Assembly (NCBI GenBank): GCA_022566355.1
Contig: JADFJB010000010.1
Location: 1 to 60,217 of the forward strand
Length of the DNA: 60,217 bases
From: a candidate division KSB1 bacterium
GTDB lineage: Bacteria; Zhuqueibacterota; JdFR-76; DREG01
Reading direction: 5' to 3'
Below, in pieces: positions 19,582 to 58,782 of the stretch. The position numbers and the translations under genes were made by a program. How positions within the stretch are numbered: position 1 is the stretch's first letter; the number at the start of each line of letters is the position of its first letter. Below the pieces are notes generated by a model. The model was not told the origin of the DNA, made no database searches, and worked only from the letters and a program-made list of their open reading frames with translations.

Positions 19582-20940
19582 CTAGCATGATAAATATTTC
19601 CCCGTTAAATTTGTTGTTGTTATTTCTTCATCTCTCACAATCTCCTGCCCTCTTAAAAAAACATGACTAGGAGCGCCTGTAACCTCCCATCCTTCATAAG
19701 GCGACCAATCTGTATTACTGTGCAATGTGGAAGCACTCAAAGTTGTTTCCTTCAGTGGATCAAAAATAACCAGATCTGCATCCGATCCTTCGCGAATACA
19801 ACCCTTCTGCGGATATAATTTAAATGTTCGAGCAGGATTCTCACACAATACTTCTATTAGTTTATTGATCGTCAACCGTTTTTTTCGTACACCTTCACTA
19901 TATAATAAAGTTAATAATGTCTCCACGCCTGGCAGACCATTAGGAGTCGTATGAAATTTTCCCAACCCACTATATTTTTGTTCCCGAGTAAAAGGGCAAT
20001 GGTCTGTTCCGACTGTACTGATCCATCCTTTTTGTATGCCTTGCCAGAGATAATCACAATCACTTTTTTCACGGAAAGGAGGACTGGCAATAAAACAATG
20101 GCCTTCTTCTCCTTCATAAATATCACGATTAAAAAGCAAGTACTGTGGACAGGTTTCTGCAATTATGGTAAGTCCTTTTTTCTGAGCTTGATGAATAAGC
20201 TGCAATGCTCCGCCCGAAGTTAAGTGCACAATGTATAACGTAACTCCTGTAGCTTCCGCTAAAAAAATCCCTCGATGCACAGCTTCGATCTCGCTTTCAA
20301 CTGGCCTGCTATTGGGGTAATTTTTAGCTGTTTCTTTGCCCGCACTGATTAACCGATCGGTCACAAAATCAATAAGATCACCGTTCTCAGCGTGGAGCAT
20401 TGCAATCGCATCCAATGCTGCTGCTTTTGCATAAACTTGCAAGAGTTGATCATCTCGCAACATCATCCCTGCCTGTTTGTAAGCCATAAATGTCTTAAAG
20501 CTGCAAACCCCCATATCTAAAACGGATTCCATTTCACTGGTAGTTGTCTCTGTAAAATCCGTTACATTACAATGGAATGTGTAATCGACATAAGATTTGC
20601 CTTCGGCTAATTTCATCCTCTCTCGAAGCGAATCAGGTAATGATTGGCCTTTTTTCTGAACCGTAAAATCTATGATTGTAGTCACGCCTCCAAATGCTGC
20701 AGCTATGGAACCCGATTCAAAATCATCCGAAGACCAGGTGCCCATAATTGGAATACCCATGTGGGTGTGAGCATCAATTATGCCAGGAAGAATATATTTT
20801 CCTTGGGCATCAATAACGCGATCGTAATCTCCAGTATAACAATCAATGATCTCTTTAATTTTTTCATCCTCAATCAATATTTCTGAGTAATAACTCTTTT
20901 GTGGAGTGACAATGTTTCCGTTTTTGATCAGGGTTTTCAT
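19582..20940 (-). CDS. hyuA: Hydantoinase/dihydropyrimidinase
   Basis: 452 residues, cytosolic, cyclic-amide ring opening. All ligands of the binuclear metal site are visible: HTH in IIDAHTHMG (about 57-63), the carbamylated Lys in CSFKTFMAYK (about 150), His in MLHAENG, His in YIVHLTSGG, and Asp in VGTDHCPF. Length is usual for the family (about 460). It is the last gene of the minus-strand set with YgeW- and YgeY-like genes and a molybdenum hydroxylase, as is E. coli hyuA in its purine-related cluster. A ring-opening role on a purine-derived intermediate is inference from that context. Confidence 0.88.
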   Translation of the reverse strand: MKTLIKNGNIVTPQKSYYSEILIEDEKIKEIIDCYTGDYDRVIDAQGKYILPGIIDAHTHMGIPIMGTWSSDDFESGSIAAAFGGVTTIIDFTVQKKGQSLPDSLRERMKLAEGKSYVDYTFHCNVTDFTETTTSEMESVLDMGVCSFKTFMAYKQAGMMLRDDQLLQVYAKAAALDAIAMLHAENGDLIDFVTDRLISAGKETAKNYPNSRPVESEIEAVHRGIFLAEATGVTLYIVHLTSGGALQLIHQAQKKGLTIIAETCPQYLLFNRDIYEGEEGHCFIASPPFREKSDCDYLWQGIQKGWISTVGTDHCPFTREQKYSGLGKFHTTPNGLPGVETLLTLLYSEGVRKKRLTINKLIEVLCENPARTFKLYPQKGCIREGSDADLVIFDPLKETTLSASTLHSNTDWSPYEGWEVTGAPSHVFLRGQEIVRDEEITTTNLTGKYLSC

Positions 20941-20992
20941 ATTCCCAAATACACATTTACTGTCATGCCTAGTTATAAAAAATATCCCGGAA

Positions 20993-21973
20993 TCACATGG
21001 TCAAAGCCATAATTGCCTTGCATGTATGTAATCGGTTTTCGGCTTCCTGGTATATAACAGAATGCGACCCATCGATTACCTCATCAGTTACTTCATTGCC
21101 TCGATCTGCTGGCAAACAATGCATGTAAATAGCATCATCCCTTGCTATCGATATTCTTCTATCATCACAAATCCAATTGCGGTATTTTTTAGATATTTCT
21201 AACGCCTTTTCAGGTTTATGGAAGAGAGATTCAATTCCCCAGCTTTTCGGGTATACAATATCAGCGTTTTCGAATGCTGCATCCATATTGTCGACGATTT
21301 CAAATTTAACCCCGGACTTTTCAGCATTTTCCTGTGCCTGTTTTAAAGTCGAATCCATTAGTTTAAATTCAGGTGGATGTGCTAAAGTTACATCAAGTCC
21401 AAAGCGTGTCATGAGCATTATCAAGCCTTGTGGAACTGACATGGGCTTGGCATAACTGGGTGCATAAGCCCAGGATATTGCAATTTTTCTGCCTCGTAGA
21501 TTATTGCCAAATCTCTCCCTGATCGTCATTAAATCAGCCAGTGTTTGAAAAGGATGGTCAATATCACACTGCATATTTAGTACGGGTTTTTCTGCCCATT
21601 GGGCGACTTCACGCATAAATACATTACCTTCACCAGGCACCAAATCATGACGAATTGCAATACCGTGTCCATAACTTGACATAATAATGCCAGTATCTTT
21701 TGGACTTTCCCCATGGGCAATTTGTGATGTTTCTGAATCAATAAAGTGAGCGTGACCCCCAAGCTGGGTTAAACCTGCTTCGAACGAATTTCTGGTTCGG
21801 GTAGATTTGTCAAAAAAGAGCATAAAGAGCGTCTTGTCCGATAATAATTTATGCGGTTCGCCCTTTCGGAATTTTTCCTTCAATTCAATTGCTGTTTCAA
21901 GAGCAATTTCTATTTCTTCTTTAGTCCAATCCTGTGTTGAGATAAAATCTTTGCCCCGTAATTCTTCTGTCAT
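20993..21973 (-). CDS. ygeW: YgeW-type carbamoyltransferase
   Basis: 326 residues of the aspartate/ornithine carbamoyltransferase fold. The carbamoyl-phosphate loop DKSTRTRNSF (about 55-64) is intact, as are DHPFQTLADLM (about 138-148) and MHCLPADRG near the C-terminus. The proline-rich stretch SWAYAPSYAKPMSVPQG between strands fits the 'knotted' carbamoyltransferases (YgeW, N-acetyl- and N-succinyl-ornithine types). The 4-nt ATGA overlap with the ygeY-like gene shows tight coupling. In the known urate cluster YgeW is needed for purine breakdown, probably handling a ureido or oxamate-like carbamoyl group. The exact substrate is unproven here. Confidence 0.85.
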   Translation of the reverse strand: MTEELRGKDFISTQDWTKEEIEIALETAIELKEKFRKGEPHKLLSDKTLFMLFFDKSTRTRNSFEAGLTQLGGHAHFIDSETSQIAHGESPKDTGIIMSSYGHGIAIRHDLVPGEGNVFMREVAQWAEKPVLNMQCDIDHPFQTLADLMTIRERFGNNLRGRKIAISWAYAPSYAKPMSVPQGLIMLMTRFGLDVTLAHPPEFKLMDSTLKQAQENAEKSGVKFEIVDNMDAAFENADIVYPKSWGIESLFHKPEKALEISKKYRNWICDDRRISIARDDAIYMHCLPADRGNEVTDEVIDGSHSVIYQEAENRLHTCKAIMALTM

Positions 21974-23178
21974 TCTAACTCTTCCTTTTCATTTTTAAAG
22001 TGTTGTGGGAAAGCAGTATAAAATGCGATTGCTTTGTGTAAATGATCCACTGGAACCTGGTCTTGTGGTGAATGGGCGTAAATTTCATTTCCCGGCCCAA
22101 AGCCGATCGTTGGAATTTCAAGCATTCCCATTGTTGCCACACCATTTGTACTAAAATTCCATTTATCGACAATTGGATGATCACCAAAAACCTGCTGGTA
22201 CGCTTTCACCCCGGATTGAATTGCATAATGATCTTCCTCGATGACCCAGGTTGGAAAATATTTTTTTGTCGGATATTTTAAACCGGTATAACTGGGCGTA
22301 TCGTAAACCGGGACTATGACTTCGGCCTCAGCTTGTTGAACACTCGGTAAGGACTTTATTTCGTTTAGTGCAGATTCGAGGGTTTCTCCTGCTGTAAGTC
22401 TCCTGTCAATGTGGATAGTAGCGCCATCTGCTACCGCGTTTAATGAAGGAGACGTAGATCGAATCTGAGAGATTGTTATAGTGCCTTTGCCAAGAAATTC
22501 ATCCTGTTTTAATCGATGGTTTAATTGTTCGACATCGGCAATAATAGGCGCCATCTTGTAGATGGCATTCACTCCCCTTTCCGGCATGGCGCCATGAGAC
22601 GAAATTCCTTTTGTGACCACCTGAATGTCCATGCGGCCACGCTGACCGCGATGTATATTTAAATTGGTTGGTTCGGCAATCACCACACAATCCGGGCGTA
22701 ATTTATCTTCTTTAGCGATATACTGCCAGCACAAACCATCGCAATCTTCTTCCATCACGGTTCCAGTTATATATAAAGAAATGCCATCAGTTAGTCCCAA
22801 TTTTTTGATCAATCCTCCAGCATAAACAATCGATGCTAGTGCACCTTTCATATCACCAGCACCACGGCCATAAACAATCCTGTTTTTAATCACACCCTTG
22901 AAAGGATCGGTTTCCCACAGCGATAGATTGCCCACATCCACCGTGTCTACGTGAGCATCCAGAGCAATCTTTATTGGACCATTGCCAACCCGTCCCAAAA
23001 TATTGCCCATAGGATCGATTGTTATATCATCGTACTCTAACTTTTCCATTTCTTGATTGATACGCTGAATCACATTTTTTTCTTCACTACACATGGATTT
23101 TATGGCTATTAGCTCTAGGAGAAAGTTCAGACAATCTTGTTCAAGTTCTTTTGCTAATTTCAGAAAATCATAATTCAT
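21970..23178 (-). CDS. ygeY: YgeY-type M20 family hydrolase
   Basis: 402 residues of the M20/ArgE-DapE fold. The zinc ligands are in order: H and D in ALDAHVDTVDVG (about 93-99), bridging D in RGAGDMKGAL (about 130), E-E in VMEEDCDG (about 165), E in VIAEPTNL (about 190) and H in YAHSPQDQ near the end. The lid-domain motif HRGQRGRMDI is the one typical of the YgeY 'selenium metabolism hydrolase' family rather than of ArgE. Its position before the YgeW-like gene repeats the E. coli order. It probably deacylates or decarbamoylates an opened-ring intermediate. Confidence 0.85.
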   Translation of the reverse strand: MNYDFLKLAKELEQDCLNFLLELIAIKSMCSEEKNVIQRINQEMEKLEYDDITIDPMGNILGRVGNGPIKIALDAHVDTVDVGNLSLWETDPFKGVIKNRIVYGRGAGDMKGALASIVYAGGLIKKLGLTDGISLYITGTVMEEDCDGLCWQYIAKEDKLRPDCVVIAEPTNLNIHRGQRGRMDIQVVTKGISSHGAMPERGVNAIYKMAPIIADVEQLNHRLKQDEFLGKGTITISQIRSTSPSLNAVADGATIHIDRRLTAGETLESALNEIKSLPSVQQAEAEVIVPVYDTPSYTGLKYPTKKYFPTWVIEEDHYAIQSGVKAYQQVFGDHPIVDKWNFSTNGVATMGMLEIPTIGFGPGNEIYAHSPQDQVPVDHLHKAIAFYTAFPQHFKNEKEELE

Positions 23179-23522
23179 AAATATTCCAATAAATAATAAT
23201 TCTTTAACCGTTGATTAATCTCGAAATTCATAAGTATCGTTACTGTCATCCAGGAGGGACCTATTTGGCCCTTTATTCTATACTCACTTATGAGCCTTTT
23301 CGATCATATCTAACAAGATCCCGTCATGCAGGCTGTCGGGATGACAACTAAGTATGATTTATGTATAAAACTGGAATTTATGAATTAACCAAGTTTTAAT
23401 TAATTTTCAAATCACATATTTTCAAAATTCAAAACTAAATTTCAGCTAATTTACAGTTTAAAACGTCGAATACTTGTTTTTGTGATTATTCAAATTTTGT
23501 ATTGTGATCTTTGGTTATTTTT
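23179..23522. other. Intergenic gap inside the purine cluster
   Basis: 344 bp without a gene. It contains a 103-bp segment bounded by TGTCATCC (23244-23251) and GGATGACA (23339-23346), with an AGGG...CCCT and a TCCCG...CGGGA hairpin inside. The remainder is AT-rich. It separates the CysK-like gene from the ygeY-ygeW-hyuA trio and may hold their promoter. Confidence 0.5.
23244..23346. repeat. 103-bp element with 8-bp terminal inverted repeats
   Basis: TGTCATCC and GGATGACA are perfect inverted ends. The layout resembles the common 'GTCATxCC...GGxATGAC' dispersed palindromic elements of bacterial genomes. No second copy with the same interior is present in the window. Confidence 0.45.
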
Positions 23523-24575
23523 TTATCCAATCAATTCCCATGTATGCTGGTATTTATCTAACTCAGTTATGGTATAATCATCCATAGGATGTTCACGTTC
23601 AGGAATTTCAACTTCTTTTACCTCGCCACACAGCTCGGTTGAGAAATAGCGCTGACCTGTATCATTAATCATTGTGACTATAGTTTCCATCTCGGGATGT
23701 TTTTTCGCTAGTTTCATGGCTGCCGCAATATTACTTCCTGAGGAAATGCCGCAAAATACGCCTTCAGAACGTGATAGCCTGCGAGCCATTTCCATTGCTT
23801 CTTCTGTTGTGGTTGTTATTATTCCATTTAGGATACCGACATTTAAATTTTTTGGAATGAAGCCATCGCCAATTCCTTCGATTCCATGCGGGCCCCACTC
23901 TCTCTTCGATAACAAGGGACACTCGGCAGGTTCAATAGCAAATAATTGTACGGCAGGATTACGTTCGCGAAAATATTTTCCGACACCCGAAATCGTGCCG
24001 CCAGTCCCTTGGGTTGCAATAAATGCATCAAATTCACCGCTCGTTTGTTGCCAGATTTCAGGGCCAGTTGTGAGATAATGTGCATCTATGTTATTAGGAT
24101 TATCAAATTGAGCCGGTACCCAATATTTTTGTGGATCCTGGCTTCGGACCTCCTCCAATTTAGCTAAAGCAAGGTCAACATCACTTTCTCCGCCAGGTGT
24201 TTCAATGACTTCTGCTCCATAAGCACGATCTAACTTTTTGCGTTCTTCGGACATTCCTGACGGCATTATGATGATGCATGGATAGCCTTTTACCGCAGAT
24301 ACAAAAGAACAGCCAATTCCGGCATTACCTGTGGAGCATTCAAGAACGGTCATTCCTGGTTTCAGTTCTCCCCTTTCTTCCGCTTTTTCGAACATGTGAT
24401 AATAAATACGATCTTTCAAACTCCCACTCGGACTAAACCATTCCAATTTTACCAGAATAGTGGTGTTGATATTTTCCTGTTGCGGAATTCGATTCAGTTT
24501 AAGAAGGGGTGTCTGACCTATTGTTTCGAATATATTATTTGCTATTTTCTGATTTCGTGACCAATCTCCAGACAT
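23523..24575 (-). CDS. CysK/CBS-like PLP-dependent enzyme in the purine cluster
   Basis: 350 residues of the cysteine synthase/cystathionine beta-synthase fold. The PLP lysine is in SGSLKDR (about 49-55), the phosphate-binding loop is TQGTGGTISG (about 168-177), the Asn/Thr pocket is CSTGNAGIGC, and SSGSNIAAA is near the end. GGAGAAG precedes the ATG. By sequence it is O-acetylserine sulfhydrylase-like, but none of the surrounding genes is sulfur-related. In the known urate clusters this place is held by YgeX diaminopropionate ammonia-lyase, also a PLP beta-eliminase but longer. Substitution by this protein is an inference. Ordinary cysteine synthesis remains possible. Confidence 0.8.
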   Translation of the reverse strand: MSGDWSRNQKIANNIFETIGQTPLLKLNRIPQQENINTTILVKLEWFSPSGSLKDRIYYHMFEKAEERGELKPGMTVLECSTGNAGIGCSFVSAVKGYPCIIIMPSGMSEERKKLDRAYGAEVIETPGGESDVDLALAKLEEVRSQDPQKYWVPAQFDNPNNIDAHYLTTGPEIWQQTSGEFDAFIATQGTGGTISGVGKYFRERNPAVQLFAIEPAECPLLSKREWGPHGIEGIGDGFIPKNLNVGILNGIITTTTEEAMEMARRLSRSEGVFCGISSGSNIAAAMKLAKKHPEMETIVTMINDTGQRYFSTELCGEVKEVEIPEREHPMDDYTITELDKYQHTWELIG

Positions 24576-24704
24576 ATCTTCTCCGTTTCTAATTTAATCC
24601 GTACATCTTATTCAAATACGAAGAACATAAAGGACACTAATAAAAGTCTAAAGAAAAACTTTGTTTTCTTCGTTAATAATTATCTAAGATTGTTAAAATA
24701 GCCA

Positions 24705-27317
24705 TTACGCGATTTTTCGATTGCCAATGATCGCTCTTGCAGCAGGCGAATCCTTCATTGGCAATGAAAACCGGCGAATGCCGTCAAATTTATGAAGTGC
24801 TGCTGCAACGGCAGGTGCGGTTGGCACCAGGCCGATCTCCCCTACTCCTTTCGCGCCAAAAGGTCCTTCCGGCTCGTGTTCTTCGATAACGATCACTTCG
24901 ACCTCTGGCATATCCTTCGCCCGCAAAATATGTAGCGAACGTAAATCATACTTTTGCGGAGCACCATTTTCTAATCGAAGTTCCTCGGTTAAGGCATATC
25001 CCAGGCCCATATGGATAGAACCTTCAATTTGGCCTTCAAGTAGTTGCGGATTTAAGGCTTTTCCTACATCATGAGCGGCAATGACTTTCTGAAGTTTACC
25101 ATCATCATCCAATATTACAACCTGGGTGGCAAATCCATAGGTAATATGCGTTCGTTGTTCTTGCGACATGTCATCTATTTTAGTGGTTTTATCATCGACT
25201 ACTTCGCCGATATATTCCCTGCCAACCAGTTCCTTTAGATTAGCAGTTTCCATATCTTTTCGTAATTTTTCAGCAGCCATTTTAACCGCATTACCCGCCA
25301 ACAAGCTCCCTCGAGAAGCGGTGGTCATTCCGCAGGGAACAGGTTTTGAAGTATCAATTTTCACTCTTACTTTACGTGGATCGATGCCGGTTACTTCACA
25401 CAGTACTTGCACCATAATCGTCAACAAACCTTGACCCATTTCAGTAAAGCCAGAGTAAATGGTGATAGATTCATCCTCTTCAATGACAATATGTGCCTGA
25501 CCACTTTCAGGCATGCCATTTCCAATACCAACATTTTTGATGCCGCATGCAATCCCAGCGTATTTTGCATTACGATACTGATCCTTTACAGCCAATAACG
25601 TTTTCTTCATTCCCACTGATTTTTTTAATACTTGCCCAGTGCTAAACATATCTCCTACATCCAGAACATTGCGCCAGCGTATTTCCCAACCATCGATACC
25701 AAGCTTTTCCGCCAAAATATCCAACATGCTTTCAATACCAAATGCAGCTTGATTGGCGCCGAATCCTCGCATGGCGCCGCATGGTGGATTATTTGTATAG
25801 ACCGCAAGTGACTCAATATCAACATTGGGAACTTTATAAGGGCCGCAGCCATGGCCGGCCGCACGCTCTAACACCTTGGCACCAACCGATGCATAAGCGC
25901 CTTTATCGCCGATCATTCTTGCGAAAACAGCCGTAATATGGCCATCTTCATCACAGCCGACTTTATATTCCATTTCTATAGGATGCCGTTTGGGATGGAA
26001 TCGAATACTTTCCATTCTGGATAAGGTTGTTTTAACAGGACGATTTGTAACCATTGCCAGTACGGCTGTTTGCCCTTGGATGGATAAATCTTCCTTACCG
26101 CCAAAAGCGCCACCATTGGGAACAAGTGTAACCTGTACCTGATCTTCTGTTAGCCCAAGAATAGAAGCAACTTGAGCACGATCGTCGAAAATTCCCTGGC
26201 CCTGGCTATAGAAATTCACTGCGCCATTTTCAGGGATCGCCAGGCAACTTTCCGGCTCAAGAAATGCATGCTCGATCATCTGGGTTTGGAAAGTATGGCT
26301 GACCACATGTGCAGAATTTGCAAAAGCCTTTTCCGCATCGCCTCGCTTTAATACAGATTTAGATAATAAATTCCCATCGGGATGGATTTGATATGCATCT
26401 TTCTTAAGTGCGTCATGTGGATTTGTGATGGGTTGCAATTCTTTGTATTCAAGTTGGATCTCTGCAACTGCAGCACGAGCAATCGCTTCCGATTCTGCAG
26501 CAACCGCTGCTAATATATCTCCCACGCAACGGGTTTCTTCTCCTTCGGCAACAAATTGCGGCCAATCTTTGGTAATCAAACCCTGGTATCGCTCCCCTGG
26601 TATGTCTTTAGCAGTGATCACCGCATGAACACCTGGTAGATTTTCAGCTCGGGTTGTATGGATCTTTTTCAAGAGACCACGGGGGCTGGGAGAAAATAAT
26701 AGCGCTCCATACAGCATACCTTCAACGTTCATATCATCGATATAAAGTCGATCTCCTAACGTTAACTCGACGGCTGAAACGCGAGGTAATGAGGAACCAA
26801 CTTTGCCGGAATAATCGAGTTCGGGACGAGCTTCGCCCAGGAACATTTTGCCTGCAGTCTCGATGGCATCGATAATCTTGACGAATCCAGTACATCGGCA
26901 GATATGCTGGTTCAATGACTTAGCTATTTCTTCTCGCGATGGATTAGGATTCTGAGATAACAAGGACTCCCCTCTTACAACGATCCCCGGAATGCAAAAA
27001 CCACACTGCAAACCCGCCTTCGCCATAAACGCATGACTCCAAACTTCTCGTTTTTCTTCTGAAAATCCCTCAAGTGTAATGACAGATTTTCCAGCAACCT
27101 TACTGATGGGCACAACACAGGCGACCATTGCTTTTCCATCAATGAGAACCACGCAACAGCCACATTGGCCCAAAGGGCTGCAACCATTTTTGGGAGAGGT
27201 AATATTAAACTGGTTCCGGAGGATTTCAAGCAAAGAGACATTAAGATCAGCTTCAACGGAAACTGGGTCTTCGTTCAAGTTAAATGATATTTGTTGAATC
27301 TGTGGTTCGGCAAACAT
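24705..27317 (-). CDS. Fused [2Fe-2S]/molybdenum hydroxylase, selenium-dependent xanthine dehydrogenase type
   Basis: The ATG at 27317 (870 residues) is preferred to the TTG at 27341. The order is: plant-type [2Fe-2S] domain (about 1-75; cysteines in NGCSPLGQCGCC), all-helical [2Fe-2S] domain (about 80-155; CGFCIPG and ICRCTG), then the aldehyde oxidase/xanthine dehydrogenase hammerhead and molybdopterin domains (about 170-865), with the NGGAFGGKED motif and a GVGEIGLVP end bearing the catalytic Glu. There is no FAD domain. This architecture and the GGAFGGKED neighbourhood match the selenium-dependent xanthine dehydrogenase/XdhD-like group, which works with a separate FAD subunit. It heads a cluster with YgeW-, YgeY- and hydantoinase-type genes. 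Xanthine, hypoxanthine or urate is the likely substrate. Confidence 0.85.
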   Translation of the reverse strand: MFAEPQIQQISFNLNEDPVSVEADLNVSLLEILRNQFNITSPKNGCSPLGQCGCCVVLIDGKAMVACVVPISKVAGKSVITLEGFSEEKREVWSHAFMAKAGLQCGFCIPGIVVRGESLLSQNPNPSREEIAKSLNQHICRCTGFVKIIDAIETAGKMFLGEARPELDYSGKVGSSLPRVSAVELTLGDRLYIDDMNVEGMLYGALLFSPSPRGLLKKIHTTRAENLPGVHAVITAKDIPGERYQGLITKDWPQFVAEGEETRCVGDILAAVAAESEAIARAAVAEIQLEYKELQPITNPHDALKKDAYQIHPDGNLLSKSVLKRGDAEKAFANSAHVVSHTFQTQMIEHAFLEPESCLAIPENGAVNFYSQGQGIFDDRAQVASILGLTEDQVQVTLVPNGGAFGGKEDLSIQGQTAVLAMVTNRPVKTTLSRMESIRFHPKRHPIEMEYKVGCDEDGHITAVFARMIGDKGAYASVGAKVLERAAGHGCGPYKVPNVDIESLAVYTNNPPCGAMRGFGANQAAFGIESMLDILAEKLGIDGWEIRWRNVLDVGDMFSTGQVLKKSVGMKKTLLAVKDQYRNAKYAGIACGIKNVGIGNGMPESGQAHIVIEEDESITIYSGFTEMGQGLLTIMVQVLCEVTGIDPRKVRVKIDTSKPVPCGMTTASRGSLLAGNAVKMAAEKLRKDMETANLKELVGREYIGEVVDDKTTKIDDMSQEQRTHITYGFATQVVILDDDGKLQKVIAAHDVGKALNPQLLEGQIEGSIHMGLGYALTEELRLENGAPQKYDLRSLHILRAKDMPEVEVIVIEEHEPEGPFGAKGVGEIGLVPTAPAVAAALHKFDGIRRFSLPMKDSPAARAIIGNRKIA

Positions 27318-27351
27318 TATATCTAAATAATCAAATCCCAATAACGAAATT

Positions 27352-57777: not shown

Positions 57778-58782
57778 CTAAGACACTGTCTTCGGATTAA
57801 CAAAAGCTTCTCGTTCCGGGAATAAACCAAAGATACCCCCGGTGTGAATAAATAGTATATTCGTTTCTTTTTGGAATTTTCCTGTTTTGATCTGATCGAT
57901 TAAACCAAACATGGCTTTGCCGGTATAAACCGGATCAAGCAATATACCTTCCAGTTTGGCCAATAACCGAATAACATCAATCTCTTCAGGTCTGCTGCGT
58001 GCATAGCCTTTCCCAACATAACCGTCGATGATCATGATGTCTTCAGGCAAAGATAGCGGGTATGAAAACCTCTCTCCAAACGATTTCAGGAGTTCAGATA
58101 TCTTTTGTTGAAAGTACTTTTCATCATCACACACATTAATTCCGTAAACTGGAATGTCTAATTGATGATATTGAAGTCCAAGAAGTAAACCGGCTTGTGT
58201 GCCACCGGAACCAACGGCTATGACAATAGCATCCATTTCCGGCAAATTTTCGTTTAATAATTGATCGCGAATTTCACTCGCAGCATTGAAATATCCCCAA
58301 CATCCGATTGCATTACTGGCTCCCTCCGGAATCACATATGGTCTATGTCCTTTTTGCCGTAAATCATCAGCCAACTCCTGCATAATTTCATCACGCTTTA
58401 AATATTGCTCGGGTGTAATGAATTTTATTTCAGCGTCAAGTATTATATCAAATAGCAGGTTTCCATCCGGAATTTTTTCCGGATTTCCTCTTAAAACAAG
58501 ATAAGGCTTCAAACCCAATTGGCGTGCAGCTAAGGCAGTGGCCCTGGCATGATTTGAAGTTGTTCCACCGGTAGTAATCAAAATATCACTCTTTTTCTGA
58601 ACGGCCTCCCCAATACTGTATTCTAATTTGCGCACTTTATTACCACTCAAGCCGAATCCGGTTAAATCATCCCTCTTGATGTAGATTGATGGTCCCTTTA
58701 AGTATTTACTAAGCCTAGATAATTTTTGGATTGGGGTAGGTGTTCGTGCCAGCCGAACACGATATGGGTTTTCAATTTGCAT
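57778..58782 (-). CDS. D-cysteine desulfhydrase/ACC deaminase-like PLP enzyme
   Basis: 334 residues of the fold II PLP family. PLP lysine in GLSGNKVRKLE (about 43-53), TTGGTTSNHARATALAAR (about 70-87), and the glycine-rich loop AVGSGGTQAGLLLG (about 190-203). The best match is the DcyD/ACC deaminase branch, which breaks D-cysteine (pyruvate, ammonia, sulfide) or 1-aminocyclopropane-1-carboxylate. Which one cannot be settled from the visible residues. It lies divergent to the succinate dehydrogenase operon. Confidence 0.85.
   Translation of the reverse strand: MQIENPYRVRLARTPTPIQKLSRLSKYLKGPSIYIKRDDLTGFGLSGNKVRKLEYSIGEAVQKKSDILITTGGTTSNHARATALAARQLGLKPYLVLRGNPEKIPDGNLLFDIILDAEIKFITPEQYLKRDEIMQELADDLRQKGHRPYVIPEGASNAIGCWGYFNAASEIRDQLLNENLPEMDAIVIAVGSGGTQAGLLLGLQYHQLDIPVYGINVCDDEKYFQQKISELLKSFGERFSYPLSLPEDIMIIDGYVGKGYARSRPEEIDVIRLLAKLEGILLDPVYTGKAMFGLIDQIKTGKFQKETNILFIHTGGIFGLFPEREAFVNPKTVS

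Follow-up and report, generated by a model that had tools for sequence, protein, structure and literature searches.

We analyzed a 60,217-nucleotide stretch of a candidate division KSB1 genome (contig JADFJB010000010.1 of GenBank assembly GCA_022566355.1; hereafter, the window) that carries a gene cluster very probably devoted to reductive urate (purine) degradation, as judged by analogy to characterized pathways. The run consists of five minus-strand open reading frames (ORFs), which encode a hydroxylase of the xanthine dehydrogenase type (XDH), a pyridoxal phosphate (PLP) enzyme, a YgeY-family hydrolase, a carbamoyltransferase (OTC), and a hydantoinase (HyuA). Tree placement and motifs assign the PLP protein, which we call CysKL, to a new, dedicated PLP subfamily, apart from housekeeping cysteine synthases. 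In the genome that holds the window (G000), CysKL most likely would carry out the last step, a beta-elimination that yields pyruvate and ammonia, a reading to which we assign a probability of about 0.5.

A PLP family apart from cysteine synthases

CysKL (23523..24575, minus strand; 350 residues) scored 347 bits against the NCBIfam cysKM subfamily model (cut-off 344) and narrowly missed the cysK equivalog (348.3 bits, cut-off 350.95). Two of its orthologs, from G035 and from Terriglobia, scored 354.7 and 349.8 bits against the latter model, so the cysK score fails to separate CysKL from CysK. In a tree of 56 rows, with CysKL sequences from KSB1, Acidobacteriota, and Chloroflexota, the CysKL orthologs formed their own clade (support 98/95) outside a group of CysK, CBS, and CysM (98/94). 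A PALP family of ~487 residues (e.g., L044:10677-12134) joined next to CysKL, with a long branch. A topology that unites the two in a single clade was not rejected (p-AU 0.45), so they may be of common descent.

The catalytic residues of O-acetylserine sulfhydrylase (OASS) are kept in CysKL: K54 (the Schiff-base lysine), N84, Q156, and S278 correspond to OASS Lys41, Asn71, Gln142, and Ser272. The substrate loop reads S81-T82-G83-N84-A85, with OASS S69 changed to Thr and T72 to Ala; E130-S131-D132-V133 replaces OASS KGM119, and Asp237 replaces Ala231. The OASS active-site set (T68-S69-G-N-T72 plus Met119) is absent, with S-T-G-N-A and ESDV in its place. In OASS, Met119, Phe143, and Ala231 line the pocket (PMC3805590). 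Counted free of any alignment, the ES[DN]V motif occurred in 24/24 CysKL and 54/55 487-residue proteins and in none of 160 other fold-type-II proteins from the same genomes (CysK, CysM, CBS, YgeX, ThrC2, ThrC, IlvA, and serine-racemase-like). Asp at OASS position 231 was found in 23/24 CysKL, 54/55 487-residue proteins, and 1/9 CysK; alignment with OASS suggests that these residues face the beta-substituent.

CysKL thus shares with CysK (OASS A) the fold, the catalytic lysine, the GTGGT motif, and the Ser272 equivalent, and differs from it in the S69T, T72A, and A231D changes, in ESDV for KGM119, in its separate clade, and in its purine-cluster neighbors. With the 487-residue family it has in common the neighbors and the [ST]TGN, TPGxES[DN]V, and GIGD motifs; that family is longer, only ~30% identical, and has TGSAGT for GTGGT and Tyr or Phe at position 72. 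YgeX (TIGR03528), the PLP enzyme expected here, is likewise of fold type II and occurs in the same kind of cluster, but it is no ortholog: it lies far from CysKL in the tree, and CysKL lacks its TDGNHG/Asp120 loop. YgeX uses Lys77 and Asp120 (PMC4000059), corresponding to the lysine and the TDGN loop that were present in all YgeX we examined. An AlphaFold model of CysKL (pLDDT 79.5) matched OASS structures best overall, with 2q3b as the top PDB hit; CysKL is ~40-46% identical to the solved structures that it matched best. As a route to the substrate, AlphaFold and Foldseek confirmed the OASS fold and gave no substrate clue.

Tree, motifs, and neighborhood together rule out a housekeeping CysK. 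A first-pass annotation of the window had read the SGSLKDR, GTGGT, and SSGSN motifs in this protein, all of which are there, and had suggested either a non-orthologous replacement of the last elimination step or a pathway variant with another end product. Neither of its two grounds for refutation held: no YgeX was found elsewhere in the genome, and the protein is placed apart from housekeeping CysK, with a neighborhood mostly kept across phyla.

Two PLP slots in the phylum

Genome G000 (KSB1 phylum; 4.6 Mb in 213 contigs, 98.5% complete) had no TIGR03528 match at E <= 1e-30; a separate YgeX, sought throughout the genome, was thus not found. Across 82 genomes of the phylum, YgeX was seen in only five, all under the TIGR03528 cut-off. 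ThrC2, a threonine-synthase-like protein of 417 residues, was present in 21 and never together with YgeX. The 487-residue family was present in 26 genomes and CysKL in five (G000, G001, G035, G057, and G081), and no genome had both. Among the 24 genomes with YgeY over its cut-off, 18 had the 487-residue protein, four had CysKL, and two had neither. Since families f1 and f16 each contain both types, exchange took place repeatedly or inheritance was patchy.

G005 and G006 carry the 487-residue gene together with YgeX, and other genomes carry it together with ThrC2. Gene content therefore points to two slots: slot A is YgeX or ThrC2, slot B is the 487-residue protein or CysKL, and many relatives have both. 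This coexistence makes a plain replacement of YgeX too simple: the swap of YgeX for a CysK-like enzyme proposed in the first-pass annotation is not supported, as CysKL usually stands beside ThrC2 and thus in the second slot.

G000 has slot B only, with no slot-A enzyme found; neither a 487-residue homolog nor ThrC2 was detected in this 98.5% complete genome. Its sole ThrC (contig C131) is a housekeeping enzyme (PRK08197, 601 bits), only 36% identical to ThrC2, and was rejected as a ThrC2. We also rejected a ThrC2 hidden on contig C73 just upstream of ssnA, where the remaining ~310 bp look noncoding and repeat-like. CysKL appears to be the sole such PLP enzyme in only some genomes, G000 included.

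Several observations concern the other two families. The 487-residue family (L044:10677-12134 and 25 further phylum genomes; motifs STGN[YF], TPGxESNV, and TGSAGT) is tightly linked to YgeY, OTC, ThrC2, or SsnA in many phyla and has no curated NCBIfam or specific Pfam model. Its contexts in family f14, beside transporters or HyuA/SsnA/XDH, were uninformative as a clue to the reaction. A distant branch (35-39% identity, with ESDV; L085, L087, L094, L125, and L086, from Acidobacteriota and others) sits in clusters with XDH, YgeY, OTC, YqeA, and SsnA. ThrC2 (L044:12143-13393 and 20 further phylum genomes) occurs in uricolytic clusters and is annotated by pipelines as threonine synthase; it is likely an alternative 2,3-diaminopropionate (DAP) lyase.

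Distribution beyond the phylum

Searching named genomes with an alignment of the carbamoyltransferase gave 80 loci in ~18 phyla, mostly uncultured and environmental. Within 10 kb of these loci, YgeY was present at 56, ThrC2 at 36, the 487-residue family at 23, and CysKL at three, with the last two together at none. YgeX was found within 10 kb of none of the 80, so the end of the pathway is not uniform.

CysKL orthologs were present in 7/396 Acidobacteriota and 12/400 Chloroflexota genomes and mostly adjoin XDH, OTC, YgeY, SsnA, or ThrC2. One acidobacterial locus (L310) has XDH-CysKL-YgeY-OTC in the order of the window, plus ThrC2; at four loci (L312, L313, L316, and L325), CysKL is accompanied by ThrC2 and by either XDH or SsnA. 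In five Chloroflexota clusters (L317, L319, L320, L321, and L322), CysKL adjoins OTC, with XDH; four of these contigs also carry SsnA. Each of the five has an adenine-deaminase-like gene, assigned to Pfam PF13382 where checked (L317). Whole-genome PF00291 scans of these five Chloroflexota genomes found no YgeX and no 487-residue protein; ThrC2 was ambiguous only in G505. Alongside these genes, the clusters hold an ABC-transporter-like set and a guanine-deaminase-like amidohydrolase; YgeY is missing from their contigs, and they perhaps represent a further variant of the pathway.

A probable urate pathway in G000

The remaining genes of the run were compared with curated NCBIfam models. XDH is a fused Fe-S/Mo hydroxylase of the Se_dep_XDH (C. 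difficile/XdhAC) type (TIGR03311, 1030 bits, cut-off 830) with the Pfam domains MoCoBD_1, MoCoBD_2, Ald_Xan_dh_C, and Fer2_2. A TTG start gives 24705..27341 on the minus strand, and the alternative ATG at 27317 is the likelier start (870-878 residues). The YgeY-family M20 hydrolase (21970..23178, minus) scored 563 bits against PRK13004 (cut-off 321) and 553 against TIGR03526 (cut-off 321.5), and HyuA, a D-hydantoinase/dihydropyrimidinase (19582..20940, minus), 501 against TIGR02033 (cut-off 393). With all three over their cut-offs, the first-pass calls of XDH, YgeY, and hydantoinase hold, and our ORF check confirmed the five minus-strand genes, the 350-residue length of the PLP protein, and a 4-nt overlap of the carbamoyltransferase gene with ygeY.

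The "YgeW-type" label did not survive. The carbamoyltransferase (20993..21973, minus; OTCace domains) scored 262 bits against one YgeW model (cut-off 453) and 244 against another (cut-off 500), far enough below both to rule out YgeW, and it was also under the cut-offs of ornithine carbamoyltransferase models. It has 326 residues versus ~391-396 for YgeW. Short carbamoyltransferases of the same context in the phylum are 74-83% identical among themselves, compared with 39-42% to E. coli YgeW. By length and identity, they are a distinct short subfamily, separate from the YgeW equivalog.

The first-pass annotation had placed SsnA outside the window, and we found it elsewhere in the genome, on contig C73, beside a YgfK-like gene. 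SsnA met the PRK07203 cut-off (466 bits, cut-off 444) and fell slightly under that of TIGR03314 (450 bits, cut-off 455.5). The adjoining YgfK-like protein (735 residues) scored 400 bits against TIGR03315 (cut-off 835), matching the N-terminal part only (the first ~400 positions). The pathway genes of G000 are thus split over at least two contigs; in relatives, various combinations of SsnA, the YgfK-like protein, XDH, HyuA, and YgeY stand in one cluster (L049, L052, L055, L057, L285, and L286). With the C73 genes counted, G000 has most of the genes of the reductive urate pathway. The earlier reading of the cluster as one for urate or purine degradation in a bacterium of FCB type (KSB1) is supported.

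We infer the direction of the pathway and all of its substrates by analogy to E. coli, C. difficile, and C. sporogenes. XDH would reduce urate to yanthine, which the YgfK-like enzyme would reduce further; SsnA would open the ring to give ureidomethyl-hydantoin, and HyuA would cleave the hydantoin ring to yield 2,3-diureidopropionate. The short carbamoyltransferase would take off one ureido group, possibly as carbamoyl phosphate, and YgeY would hydrolyze the remaining one to leave DAP. The five window genes would then make up most of the lower half of the pathway, with SsnA and the YgfK-like protein of C73 supplying the middle steps.

Proposed reaction and alternatives

G000 has slot B only, so CysKL probably does the terminal elimination there. 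The enzyme would form an external aldimine with DAP; K54 would remove the alpha-proton, the beta-amine would leave, and the resulting alpha-aminoacrylate would decay to pyruvate and ammonia. The acidic residues predicted in the pocket wall could hold the distal beta-amino (or ureido) group.

Several observations weigh against this assignment. Most relatives with CysKL or the 487-residue protein have one more PLP enzyme (ThrC2, or YgeX in G005 and G006), so CysKL may do a different step. Contig C73 ends ~310 bp upstream of ssnA, at the site of ThrC2 in G035 and G057, and a ThrC2 could therefore have been lost in an assembly gap. CysKL lacks the Asp120 used by YgeX, with ThrC2 and the 487-residue family likewise lacking an Asp there; four orthologs (L309, L311, L314, and L323) lie outside a recognizable purine cluster; and the pocket argument comes from alignment, not from a ligand structure. 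We accordingly give real, if lesser, weight to an additional slot-B step that CysKL would share with the 487-residue family in place of DAP elimination, for example, D/L interconversion, beta-elimination of urea from albizziin, or beta-replacement of DAP to another amino acid. DAP would then be cleaved by ThrC2 or YgeX where present and, in G000, by a hidden slot-A enzyme, an unrecognized one, or a housekeeping fold-type-II enzyme. Such a step fits the coexistence of slot B with YgeX in two genomes and with ThrC2 in most, the mutual exclusion of ThrC2 and YgeX, the motifs and possible single clade that join CysKL to the 487-residue family, and the Chloroflexota clusters in which CysKL and OTC occur with no YgeY on the contig. 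It sits less well with the failure to find a slot-A enzyme in a genome that is 98.5% complete, and the pathway of E. coli and C. difficile runs without a slot B.

The two other explanations that we considered have far lower standing than terminal elimination by CysKL. It is improbable that CysKL is a cysteine synthase, in the cluster by chance, that supplies cysteine or sulfide (e.g., for the Mo-S or Fe-S sites of XDH). Its score near the cysK cut-off and its OASS fold and PLP-site residues are what favor this role, but its own clade outside CysK/CBS/CysM, the altered pocket, the mutual exclusion with the 487-residue family, and neighbors conserved across phyla argue otherwise. G000 also has other candidates for cysteine synthesis, a CBS-like gene (contig C3) and a CysM-like gene adjoining JAMM/MoaD-like ORFs (contig C35), which plausibly cover its cysteine supply. 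We regard it as similarly improbable that the cluster degrades some other hydantoin- or ureido-containing compound and that XDH is an ordinary xanthine dehydrogenase. Sequence by itself names no substrate, the carbamoyltransferase falls outside the YgeW equivalog, and the YgfK-like protein is short, with only part of TIGR03315 matched; against these points stand the joint presence of SsnA, the YgfK-like protein, XDH, HyuA, and YgeY in G000, their varied clustering in relatives, and the adenine deaminase of the Chloroflexota clusters.

Other features of the window

The PLP gene and ygeY are 344 bp apart (23179..23522, minus), and the interval contains a palindrome-like GTCATCCCG...GGGATC element (23315-23347), which is intergenic and present as a single copy in the window. 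A sequence resembling this short dispersed element lies at the end of contig C73, upstream of ssnA. A Rid-family protein (TIGR00004; 31480-31956, minus) with a lipoprotein-like signal is encoded ~4 kb from the cluster, with a TonB-type receptor between them; Rid enzymes hydrolyze aminoacrylate. Farther along, a PLP enzyme related to D-cysteine desulfhydrase and ACC deaminase (57778-58782, minus; TIGR01275, 347 bits versus 289) is a possible spare lyase. On the other side of the cluster, an AbiEii-type nucleotidyltransferase (PF08843; 17588-18846, minus) and an AbiEi-like partner gene upstream are, by family assignment, a type IV toxin-antitoxin-like pair.

Discussion

The reductive urate pathway was resolved in 2023-2025 in gut bacteria, and its origin, ancient and environmental or recent and in the gut, was posed as an open question (PMC12990295). 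The cluster described here is itself a variant of this known pathway. It shares XDH, a YgfK-like protein, SsnA, HyuA, a carbamoyltransferase, YgeY, and a PF00291 protein with the reductive uric acid cluster of E. coli and C. difficile (PMC12507026); it differs in having the short carbamoyltransferase instead of YgeW and CysKL instead of YgeX, in the spread of its genes over at least two contigs, and in its host, a member of a candidate phylum where the known clusters are from gut bacteria. A published neighborhood survey scored any PF00291 neighbor as "YgeX" (Fig. 3g, PMC12507026), so the four PLP families (YgeX, ThrC2, the 487-residue family, and CysKL) could not show. Our literature search found no CysK-like enzyme in urate clusters. 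As far as the available literature shows, the CysKL and 487-residue families as pathway markers, the mutual exclusion of ThrC2 and YgeX, and the cluster's wide occurrence across uncultured environmental phyla are new.

These data suggest that environmental bacteria finish the reductive urate pathway differently from gut bacteria. PF00291 neighbors cannot simply be labeled YgeX, and the CysKL/487-residue signature offers a concrete enzyme set to test, as well as alternative parts for engineered uricolytic probiotics. More tentatively, the environmental route may include a PLP step that is absent from the gut pathway (e.g., a ureidoalanine/albizziin lyase or a DAP-converting enzyme), carried out by the CysKL/487-residue pair with its ES[DN]V and GIGD signature; the YgeX-only route of the gut would then have arisen by simplification of an older, widespread one.

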